Positions 22,097 to 40,266 of a stretch of 64,000 nucleotides of DNA are shown one piece after another; positions within the stretch are counted from its first letter, which is position 1, and the number at the start of each line of letters is the position of its first letter. Made by a program: the position numbers and the translations under genes. The stretch is from Cyanobacterium stanieri LEGE 03274. Lineage in GTDB: Bacteria > Cyanobacteriota > Cyanobacteriia > Cyanobacteriales > Cyanobacteriaceae. The stretch covers positions 1 through 64,000 of the forward strand of contig NZ_JADEWC010000015.1 in the NCBI RefSeq assembly GCF_015207825.1. The letters are read 5' to 3'. Below the pieces are notes generated by a model, which was given only the letters and a program-made list of their open reading frames with translations, ran no database searches and was not told the DNA's origin.

Positions 22097-22913
22097 TCTA
22101 AATTATATAAAATAGGAGTAAATATGTGGAATAATTTATTTGTTATTCACTTACTAATATAATAAATATTGTTCCCTTTTTTTATAAAGATGTGATAAAG
22201 ATTTTATAAAGATAACTTTAAATTTATTTTTTTTATATACCATCAAGAATATATAAAAATCAACACATATTTATTCTAGCTAATTCAATACGATAAACGA
22301 TAATAAATAACTCAAAATTAATATAAAAACATCTTATGGGAGTAATGTATAAAAAAGTACAAATTTTTTTTACTCTAATTAATAAAATTAATCAATATAT
22401 TATGGTCAGATAAAACTAATTTTGCTTAACAAAAAATAAAACTAATAATTACAAAAAGATAATAAAAGTTAATAAAAGTTTTCTTAAAAAAATATAAAGT
22501 AATTAACTGCTCAAGCTAAATTATTTTTAATACATAATCCATTAATAAATTACACTTAATGTTCATATCAACCAAATAAGGTGCGCTTGATTCAATGTGT
22601 AACCTCATTTTCATCAAAATATTACAGATACTACATACCCTTAAAAGGATATATAAAACACAGCTTTAACTTAAATTTGGGATAAAATTTATGGTTTTTT
22701 AAAGATGTAAACAATTAACAATGGGTAATTAAACTATTATCATTCTTACTCCCCATCATCCATCTTAACACTTGCAACTAGGAGAGACGTAGTATGCTAC
22801 ATCCCTACCATACTGAAAAATCCCCCATAGAAGTTATTTTTAAGCGATAATTACCTCGTCAGCAAAACTACATGGAGTCAAAATGCCCCAAAAGTTTTTA
22901 CTTAAAATGTGAA
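22097..22913. other. Long AT-rich intergenic region with a short dispersed repeat
   Basis: About 800 bp with no convincing reading frame, lying upstream of arsR and downstream of the response-regulator gene. The only structured part recognised is near 22775-22826: GACGTAGTATGCTAC, then CCTACCATACTGAAAAATCCC, a relative of the segment at 42207-42262. The segment around 22570 (GGTGCGCTTGATTCAATGTG) faintly resembles the left part of the two-hairpin repeat. A small RNA could be hidden here, but nothing in the sequence singles one out. Confidence 0.45.
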
Positions 22914-23336
22914 TTAATCATCTTCTAACTCTAATTTCCACTCTCCACTAACAAAAGACTTTACCTCCTTAACAAACTCATCTTGATTAATGATAGGCTT
23001 GGTAATATAACCATCCGCACCACTAAGATTTAAAAAATTTTCCCTATCCCCTTCCATAGCGTGGGCAGTAATTAAGACTACAGGAATATCATGGGTTATA
23101 GGATTTGCCTTTAAAAGTTGAGTAATTCTAATGCCATCTACCGGCTCACCGTTATAATAACTGTTAGATAAAGAAACATCCATCAAAACAACCTTGGTAA
23201 CCCCAGAATTTGCTACCCTCAATACTTCATCAACATTTTCTGTGCCAATCACATTCAACCCTCCTCTTTTGGTGAGGATTTTGGAAAAAACTTTTAAATT
23301 AATGGGGTCATCTTCTACTATTAAAACTGTACTCAT
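22914..23336 (-). CDS. CheY-like single-domain response regulator
   Basis: 140 aa, a receiver domain only. Acidic pocket E8-D9-D10, phosphoacceptor D53 (VVLMDVSLS), T90 (VVLITAH) and K113 (YITKPI) are all present, so it should be phosphorylatable. A 5-residue insertion after the phosphosite (SNSYYNGEPVDGI) resembles the receivers of the DivK/PleD-like and cyanobacterial hybrid type. There is no output domain. The ATG overlaps the stop of the cryptochrome gene (ATGA), so it is translationally coupled to it. No kinase gene is nearby. Confidence 0.9.
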   Translation of the reverse strand: MSTVLIVEDDPINLKVFSKILTKRGGLNVIGTENVDEVLRVANSGVTKVVLMDVSLSNSYYNGEPVDGIRITQLLKANPITHDIPVVLITAHAMEGDRENFLNLSGADGYITKPIINQDEFVKEVKSFVSGEWKLELEDD

Positions 23337-24793
23337 CGAGTAGCACCCAAATAAACTTTTTCGTTATGCTTAACGGATTTAAAAAAATCTACCATCGGGC
23401 GAGGATAGTTTACCCCTAATTGTACCTTAAATTGTCTCTGTTCTTCCTTTGATAGTTTCCAAGGTTCGTGAATTTTTTCCCCTTTGATAGAAGCTATTTC
23501 TGGCAACCAATGGCATAGATAGCCTCCTTGATAGTCATAATCTTTAGATTGTTTGGGAATATTGAAGTAACGAAATCCACGGGCATCATTACCCACCCCT
23601 GCGGTGTAATTCCAATTACCCCAGTTACTACATACGTCATAATCAATTAATAAAGATTCAAACCATTCGGCGCCCATTTGCCAATTTATACCGAGATTTT
23701 TGGTTAGGAAACTGGCGACATTTTGCCTACCTCGATTAGACATAAAACCAGTGGCATTTAATTCTCTCATGTTGGCATCTACGAGGGGATAGCCTGTTTT
23801 GCCCTCACACCATAACTCGAATAAGTTTTGGTTTTCTTGCCAAGGTATCTGAATATTTTGTAATCCTGATGTATGAAATACTTTATTACCATATTTGAGG
23901 CAGGTAAAGCGGAAAAAGTCGCGCCATAATAGTTCAAAGATTAGCCAATAGGTGGAGTCGTTTTTTACTCTTTCTTGTTCATATTTTTCGATTTCGGTAT
24001 AGATGAGACGGGGAGAAAGGCAACCTTGGGCTAACCATGGGGAAAATTTGGAGGAGTAGTCACCCCCTAGCATACCGTTACGGGTTTTTTTATAGTTACT
24101 GATATTGTCTGTTTCCCATAAATAATACTGTAGTCTTTTGAGGGCTTCGGTTTCTCCACCGATAAAGGTTAATACGCCCCTATCATCTTTGGTAAATTCT
24201 TCTAAGCCTAAGTCGGCAAGGGTGGGAATTTTGCCAATGTCGATATTTTGGGGTAGAGGAGGGAGGGATGAGGGGGTTTTGAAGGTGTTATATACTTCGG
24301 CTTTTTTTTCTACTTGTTTTCTGAAGTTGGTAAAAAGATCTGGTAATTCTTCTATACTGAAGGGTAAGTCATCGGGGAAATAGAGGGTACTTTGCCAGAA
24401 GGTTTTTGTTTTGACTTGTTTTTTATCTAAAATTTTGGTTAGTTTTTTTTCCATCGCTCTTTCTTCGGCGGTGGTTTCTTCGGAAAAATAAACTTCAGTG
24501 ATTTGATATTTTTCAACAATTTTAGAAATTTCGTCTTCAGTTTTTCCTTTTTTTACTACTAAGTTACTACCTATTTTTTGTAAGGAATTTTGTAAATCTG
24601 CAACACTTTCAATGATAAATTTAGCTCGATATTTTCCTGTTTTTGGAAACCCGAATGATGTTTGTGCATAGGTGCGATAGTCAAAACAATAAAAGGGGAT
24701 TATATGATGAGGCTCTGTTGATAAGGCTCTGTATATACACTCTTGGTCATGTAATCTCAAGTCATTACGAAACCAAATTAAAATATTATTCAT
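23333..24793 (-). CDS. Cryptochrome DASH (photolyase family)
   Basis: 486 aa. Photolyase/cryptochrome with an N-terminal alpha/beta antenna domain (ILIWFRNDLRLHDQE) and a C-terminal FAD-binding helical domain (GMLGGDYSSKFSPWLAQGCLSPR; ELLWRDFFRF; NATGFMSNRGRQNVASFL; GVGNDARGFRYFNIPKQSKDYD). The pieces YCFDYRTYAQTSFGFPKTG and KYRAKFIIESVADLQ are specific for the DASH clade. DASH proteins bind FAD and usually methenyltetrahydrofolate and repair CPDs mainly in single-stranded DNA; some act as light sensors. The downstream receiver gene overlaps its stop codon by ATGA. The 275-bp upstream gap is AT-rich and carries a degenerate ATTATCAATTATCAATTATT array. Confidence 0.93.
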   Translation of the reverse strand: MNNILIWFRNDLRLHDQECIYRALSTEPHHIIPFYCFDYRTYAQTSFGFPKTGKYRAKFIIESVADLQNSLQKIGSNLVVKKGKTEDEISKIVEKYQITEVYFSEETTAEERAMEKKLTKILDKKQVKTKTFWQSTLYFPDDLPFSIEELPDLFTNFRKQVEKKAEVYNTFKTPSSLPPLPQNIDIGKIPTLADLGLEEFTKDDRGVLTFIGGETEALKRLQYYLWETDNISNYKKTRNGMLGGDYSSKFSPWLAQGCLSPRLIYTEIEKYEQERVKNDSTYWLIFELLWRDFFRFTCLKYGNKVFHTSGLQNIQIPWQENQNLFELWCEGKTGYPLVDANMRELNATGFMSNRGRQNVASFLTKNLGINWQMGAEWFESLLIDYDVCSNWGNWNYTAGVGNDARGFRYFNIPKQSKDYDYQGGYLCHWLPEIASIKGEKIHEPWKLSKEEQRQFKVQLGVNYPRPMVDFFKSVKHNEKVYLGATR

Positions 24794-25068
24794 AAGTAAT
24801 AGAATATGATTACAATTAAAATATATTAATTAATTATACACACTTTTACTATCTTTAAGGTATTAGCAAAACAAATATGTAAGCCAATATATAGCTTTAT
24901 ATAAATAAAATAATATTTGTTGTAAAACAGAAATAAAATATAAAATAATAAAAATAATTAAACCTATTTTCATTATCAATTATCAATTATTCATTGTCAA
25001 TTGTTAACACACCCTGTAGAATACATTAAGCAAAAATTGATTATAAAAATTCATAAATTAACAAAGTA

Positions 25069-39492: not shown

Positions 39493-40266
39493 ATGAATGA
39501 AAATACATCCTTAGCCCAAGAGCTAAAAGAAGCTAAAATTGCTTTTCAGAATGCTTCATTATATGCTCGTTTTCAAGCGGGTTTTTTGGGGAGGGTTTCC
39601 CATGAAATCCGATCGCCTTTAGGTAGTTTAATGAGTATTCATCAGCTAATTTTGAATGACTTGTGTGAAAGCGAGGAGGAGGAAAGGGAATTTATCGCCC
39701 AAGCCTACGAATATAGTAAAAAATTAATGAATATGTTAGATGAATTGATTGAAATTTCTAAATTAGAGGCAGGAAGATTTGAATTAGAGTTAGTGCCTTT
39801 GAAATGTCTTGATTTTTTAAAATTTGTACAGGAAAAGATGAAAATGCAAGGGGCTAACCGCAATGTTATTTTAGATGTGGCGATGGTGGATGAGAGTCTG
39901 ATGATTATGGCCGATAGGGAAAAATTAGCCCAAGGATTTTTTTATTGGTTAGAGGTGGCCATCGATGTTTCCCAACTAGGTACGATTACCCTAGGGGCAG
40001 ATTCCCAAGCCCCTGATAATTATTCACGGCTTACCATTAATTTACCGTTTTCTAGTGAGGAGTTTAAGGAATCTAGCCAATTTGAGGAGTTATCTTTTCA
40101 TCAAACCAAAGGGTTAGAGTCTTGCCCTACCCTGTCTGATGGTGCAAAAATTTCCCTTGCCCAAAGTTTGATTCATTTGATGGGGGGGCAGTGTCGCCTT
40201 CAGGAAATAACTGATAAAACTACCTGTTTAGAGATATTTCTTCCCAATTCGGGGAATTTTGCTTGA
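39493..40266 (+). CDS. HisKA-domain histidine kinase-like protein with degenerate ATPase part
   Basis: 257 aa. A coiled-coil start (residues 5-25) leads into a HisKA dimerisation domain with the H-box FLGRVSHEIRSPLG (His37) and a second helix ending EISKLEAGRFELE. The second half retains the outline of the catalytic domain (DREKLAQGFFYWLEVAID), but no Asn N-box, no DxGxG G1 box and no G2 glycine lid are visible. ATP binding is doubtful. It could be a phosphotransfer or pseudokinase partner for another regulator. The 3' end overlaps the convergent GNAT gene by 47 bp. Confidence 0.75.
   Translation: MNENTSLAQELKEAKIAFQNASLYARFQAGFLGRVSHEIRSPLGSLMSIHQLILNDLCESEEEEREFIAQAYEYSKKLMNMLDELIEISKLEAGRFELELVPLKCLDFLKFVQEKMKMQGANRNVILDVAMVDESLMIMADREKLAQGFFYWLEVAIDVSQLGTITLGADSQAPDNYSRLTINLPFSSEEFKESSQFEELSFHQTKGLESCPTLSDGAKISLAQSLIHLMGGQCRLQEITDKTTCLEIFLPNSGNFA

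Follow-up and report, generated by a model that had tools for sequence, protein, structure and literature searches.

Gene organization of the locus

The window, the whole 64,000-nucleotide stretch of Cyanobacterium stanieri LEGE 03274 DNA that was analyzed, carries a gene for a DASH-family cryptochrome (cry-DASH) and, directly behind it on the same strand, a gene for a stand-alone CheY-like receiver (Table 1). Both open reading frames were confirmed, and the stop codon of the first and the start codon of the second share the bases ATGA, as the original prediction had reported.

Table 1. Features of the cry-DASH and receiver locus in the window
Feature	Position	Strand	Description	Basis
Stand-alone CheY-like receiver	22914..23336	-	140 aa	ORF, PF00072, invariant phosphorylation residues, predicted fold, Foldseek
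ATGA overlap of cry-DASH stop and receiver start	23333..23336	-	ATGA in 12/13 family genomes, 1-bp overlap in 1/13	Sequence
cry-DASH gene	23333..24793	-	486 aa, DASH-family cryptochrome	ORF, TIGR02765, PF00875, PF03441, phmmer
AT-rich region between cry-DASH and divergent cysC	24794..25068	-	Presumed promoter place of the pair	

The cry-DASH product scored 619.4 bits against the NCBIfam model TIGR02765 (curated cutoff, 317.05), and Pfam found both PF00875 (DNA_photolyase) and PF03441 (FAD_binding_7). In phmmer comparisons with solved structures it gave nearly full-length alignments with two members of the same family, 6kii (713 bits) and 1np7 (642 bits), the latter presumably Synechocystis Sll1629. 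Judged from its sequence, the product is a DASH-family cryptochrome.

PF00072, at residues 4 to 125 of 140, was the sole Pfam domain of the receiver, which agrees with the claim that it has no output domain. The phosphorylation residues that it was said to keep are all present: D9 and D10 (the acidic pair), D53 (the phospho-acceptor Asp), T90, and K113 were invariant in a 29-row receiver alignment, and we take them to be equivalent to D12, D13, D57, T87, and K109 of CheY. M1 was also invariant in this alignment, which supports the start codon call. The receiver fold was predicted with a mean pLDDT of 91.5, its Foldseek matches were receivers, and the best solved relative by sequence was DivK (E value of 8.6e-13). 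Thus, the protein resembles the CheY/DivK-type single-domain receivers in having PF00072 only and a receiver fold, but it differs from them in belonging to an orthologue group of its own in cyanobacteria, in which the beta3-alpha3 stretch is lengthened. This stretch, which we assume to be longer than usual, has conserved Y61, G63, and D67-G68 in the 29-row alignment.

Downstream of the pair, the approximately 800 bp between the receiver stop and an ArsR-type gene (positions 22097 to 22913) contained no open reading frame of at least 80 aa and no Rfam match.

Conservation of the overlap within the family

The window's family was represented by 15 genomes, including the window's own and one Geminocystis genome. 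With thresholds of E ≤ 1e-20 for the receiver and E ≤ 1e-200 for cry-DASH, one copy of the receiver was found in 13 of the 15 genomes and cry-DASH in 14. (Two loci of the GTDB set discussed below, L016 and L073, match the contigs of G002 and G011 in length; they were taken to be identical with them and counted once.) The receiver was directly behind cry-DASH in all 13 receiver-bearing genomes, with an overlap of 1 bp in G009 and 4 bp in the others. The tail sequence of cry-DASH and the flanking genes varied between the genera of the family. For example, three g1 genomes had cysC upstream, six from g2 and g3 had a divergent methylase gene (MraW in Pfam) beside cry-DASH, and an OMP decarboxylase gene flanked the pair in two g5 genomes. 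The adjacency of cry-DASH and the methylase gene, the next most shared, was thus found in 6 of 13 genomes, whereas the overlap was retained in every one. A single 4-bp gene overlap is common in bacteria; it is the conservation despite turnover of tail and flanks, not the overlap as such, that appears to exceed chance.

The pair is not obligate, because G012 (67% complete) had a 471-aa cry-DASH that is followed immediately by a convergent gene, and this genome yielded no receiver at E ≤ 1e-20. Neither gene was found in G010 (99% complete), a joint absence that favors the operon explanation given below.

One explanation for such an arrangement is that a chance rearrangement joined the genes end to end and that the overlap has persisted, with no functional benefit, since breaking it would harm both genes. 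However, the flanks turned over repeatedly while the junction was broken in just 1 of the 14 cry-DASH-bearing family genomes, and in none of the 13 genomes was the overlap lost beside an intact, adjacent receiver. On the other side, the receiver has also moved elsewhere, it has not been retooled for its neighbor, and other cry-DASH genes have diverse close partners, as described below. On balance, we regard chance joining as fairly unlikely.

The receiver in other cyanobacteria

Among 80 GTDB receiver-orthologue loci (L016 to L095), the receiver was divergent from gyrA in 68, and the gyrA context was therefore taken as ancestral. Two of the remaining loci belonged to the window's family, two ended too early to tell, and eight had other neighbors. 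In seven of these eight, all in Crocosphaera-type genomes (L021, L023, L029, L035, L036, L051, and L053), the receiver was behind inositol-phosphatase-like and alpha/beta hydrolase genes. It is these eight loci that show that the receiver can settle in other contexts, as chance joining would have it.

The 13 cry-linked receivers were separated from the others by one label change on a 106-row tree (SH-aLRT of 94), a tree built from few columns in which two long branches fall within the cry-linked group. The simplest history is therefore a single move from the side of gyrA to the position behind cry-DASH. The only positions that separated the 13 cry-linked receivers from 93 others were K15 and I84, and both differences are conservative. 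With just two conservative clade-specific positions, the possibility that the receiver was retooled for cry-DASH was rejected.

In a sample of 291 genomes from the phylum, 88 were receiver positive and 51 had cry-DASH: both genes were present in 42, cry-DASH only in 9, the receiver only in 46, and neither in 194. One search behind these counts scored at most 14 candidates per genome, so its misses are soft; in the nine cry-DASH-only genomes, which were fully rescored, no close receiver copy was found (the best was 42%). Only 7 of the 42 genomes with both genes had them linked, and all 7 belonged to the window's family. In 11 of the other genomes the genes shared a contig but were separated by at least 238 kb, and in 24 they were on different contigs. 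Two Synechocystis-like genomes illustrate the difference from the window: in G083 the genes share a contig, 1.24 Mb from each other, and in G100 they lie on different contigs. Thus, the pair was conserved in the receiver-bearing genomes of the window's family but not outside it, where linkage was found in none of the 35 genomes with both genes. Phylum-wide co-occurrence was set aside as proof of a link because shared ancestry gives the same picture.

These distributions also bear on the possibility that cry-DASH is a photosensor that, when excited by light, binds the receiver or a receiver-kinase complex and alters phosphorylation, which would provide blue/UV-A input to a two-component pathway. 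The family-wide coupling of the genes favors this possibility, as do kinase genes near cry-DASH in other lineages (see below). Against it are the lack of linkage in the 35 nonfamily genomes, the 46 of 88 receiver-positive genomes in which the receiver persists although cry-DASH is absent, and the two conservative substitutions that alone mark cry-linked receivers. We consider it unlikely that cry-DASH acts on the receiver in this manner. The receiver is an old cyanobacterial protein and no dedicated partner of cry-DASH.

The conserved position of an orphan receiver beside a DNA gyrase gene across cyanobacteria, seen at the 68 loci above, is an observation in its own right. The receiver family is a widespread cyanobacterial signaling protein, often beside gyrA. 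Slr2024, considered at first as the Synechocystis orthologue, was dropped; the gyrA-linked receiver in Synechocystis-like genomes is near zur-like and znu-like genes. Data on Slr2024 concerning thylakoids and high light were therefore left out of account. From gene order, with partial backing from the zur and znu tags, we take the name of the orthologue to be slr2041, a name under which no paper was found in the literature searched. The tags are sll1937 and slr2043 to slr2045 in an excerpt of one report (PMC12058595), and the location of the receiver near such genes points to slr2041.

Upstream region and translation signals

A sigma-70-like match with 11 of 12 bases was found at positions 25000 to 24972, but such sites were as numerous in shuffled sequences. 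There was no conserved motif upstream of cry-DASH, with no 9-mer common to at least 5 of the 13 family loci. The HLR1 (high-light) motif was rejected as a candidate in this region because its consensus scored no better than in shuffles.

No Shine-Dalgarno (SD)-like motif preceded the receiver in any of the 13 family genomes. However, such a motif was found before just 6 of the 68 gyrA-linked receivers. Since receivers beside gyrA mostly do without it, the missing SD site is uninformative on coupling and was rejected as evidence for it.

Potential phosphate sources for the receiver

The claim that no kinase lies near the receiver was borne out. A genome-wide search located HATPase_c in 38 places, none of them on the window's contig, and no histidine kinase gene was beside the receiver. 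Open reading frames flagged by motif as kinase-like were found in 2 of 93 receiver loci, and neither adjoined the receiver. The receiver is an orphan at all of the loci examined. The nearest kinase-like gene seen was a 257-aa HisKA-only open reading frame (positions 39493 to 40266) about 15 kb away with no recognized HATPase_c; its product is possibly a degenerate kinase or a phosphotransfer protein. The HATPase_c places elsewhere in the genome, together with five Hpt places, could be sources of phosphate for the receiver.

A family-specific operon as the favored explanation

We lean, somewhat past the point of even chances, toward the explanation that cry-DASH and the receiver form a co-expressed operon, specific to the window's family, in which the two proteins do not directly contact each other. 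Coexpression of both proteins in the family is likely on the genomic evidence, with the family-wide conserved overlap providing good support for what had been proposed from the window alone. The overlap is not confined to the window genome, and the receiver elsewhere is linked to gyrA instead of a kinase; the outcome named beforehand as telling against the pair thus failed to appear on both counts.

According to the operon explanation, a stand-alone receiver, ancestrally divergent from gyrA, would have been relocated once, in the ancestor of the family, to directly behind cry-DASH. Ribosomes finishing cry-DASH would restart on the receiver, so that both proteins would be made together through presumed cotranscription and coupled translation. 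Cry-DASH would retain its own flavin-based role, and the receiver would probably be phosphorylated by an unlinked histidine kinase. Single-domain receivers act via partner binding or phosphate relay, and this receiver would act by binding a partner or by passing its phosphate on. The benefit might be that the dose of receiver is tied to the expression of cry-DASH. Direct input from cry-DASH into phosphotransfer is treated as an unlikely rival.

Two-component genes behind cry-DASH in other cyanobacteria

After receiver-bearing genes had been noticed near cry-DASH outside the family, 104 nonfamily cry-DASH loci were read, comprising all 44 from the phylum sample and 60 selected among the hits of a search across the order (174 positives out of 388), in most cases a single locus for each new genus but with added loci of g16 and g20. 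A same-strand downstream neighbor was present in 57 of the 104, and profiles flagged 9 of these neighbors as two-component genes. Vetting with Pfam left a set of eight: five from g16, two from g20 (G077 and G415), and G298. G469 was removed as a case of cry-DASH with a receiver because its 245-aa open reading frame, flagged by a home-made profile, had no Pfam family, and the p-values were recomputed.

In g16, a member of family f8, a gene for a REC-HisKA-HATPase kinase of 363 to 375 aa lies 19 to 53 bp behind cry-DASH in all five genomes with cry-DASH (L214:4022-6638, L203, L292, L293, and L294), and a convergent PAS kinase gene adjoins the REC-HisKA-HATPase gene in four of the five. Six of the nine f8 genomes had cry-DASH, five of them in g16. 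Identity among the g16 cry-DASH copies is 75 to 85%, and the pair has thus been kept in different species. Both g20 kinases and three of the five g16 kinases were examined with Pfam, and the two g16 kinases left share at least 74% identity with these. The g16 arrangement is like that in the window in that a receiver-bearing gene is directly behind cry-DASH on the same strand in every case. It differs in that the partner is a kinase, whose receiver is 29 to 30% identical to that of the window, and in that the genes are separated by gaps rather than overlapping. Looser cases were a REC-GAF-HK gene 291 and 391 bp behind cry-DASH in G077 and G415, respectively, and a PAS-HK gene 386 bp behind it in G298 (coordinates of the three loci, L199:1660-3768, L286:1083-3173, and L230:191-3631).

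The close g16 kinase with its convergent PAS kinase, and the looser cases, favor a photosensory role for cry-DASH. However, the enrichment of two-component partners was weak, suggestive at best, when each distinct partner was counted once to correct for relatedness. Two-component genes were 1 of 17 distinct partners within 100 bp of cry-DASH (p 0.30 to 0.40) and 3 of 38 within 400 bp (p 0.05 to 0.11). Adding the window's family, which is generous because that family prompted the question, gave 2 of 18 (p 0.05 to 0.10) and 4 of 39 (p 0.01 to 0.03). The background, 12 two-component genes among 567 in the surroundings of receiver loci that are gyrA-linked or similar, is probably below the genome average, and a rate of 3% was therefore used as well. 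Since g16 and g20 were oversampled, a comparison with other genera for the most conserved partner would be unfair. The tight downstream partners of cry-DASH were also diverse, as the 23 loci with a partner within 100 bp yielded 17 clusters, a diversity that fits chance joining.

A broader version of the photosensory explanation is that cry-DASH serves as an in-trans sensor for two-component signaling and was recruited at least twice, once through the receiver overlap in the window's family and once through the receiver-kinase operon in g16. We assign this a low probability. If true, it would connect a DASH cryptochrome to phosphotransfer by a genetic route. The two independent lineages with a receiver-bearing gene directly behind cry-DASH provide named candidates for a signal output of DASH cryptochromes, if these have one.

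The original prediction knew of no description of the window pair, and neither this pair nor the g16 pair was found described in a search of literature on cryptochromes with response regulators, receivers, kinases, or gene neighborhoods. The portion available of a 2017 review lists as unknown which partner acts downstream of Cry-DASH in cyanobacteria (PMC5812497), and an excerpt of another paper reports a phototaxis phenotype for a Synechocystis cry-DASH mutant (PMC3546692). The same portion of the review provides a precedent for photosensory input, the BLUF protein PixD, which is paired with a PATAN-CheY regulator (PMC5812497) named PixE in an excerpt of a further report (PMC7090099). PixD-PixE is like the window pair in that a kinase-less flavin photoreceptor is paired with a CheY-like protein. 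It is unlike the window pair in that the photoreceptor has another fold and PixE has a PATAN domain, whereas Pfam found no PATAN domain in the window receiver, only PF00072.

In f11 and f12 genomes (L199, L200, L208, L284, L285, L286, and L288), a gene that encodes a receiver is found on the opposite strand, two genes upstream of cry-DASH. By Pfam, its product is LuxR-type in L200 and receiver only in L199; the rest were flagged by profile alone.
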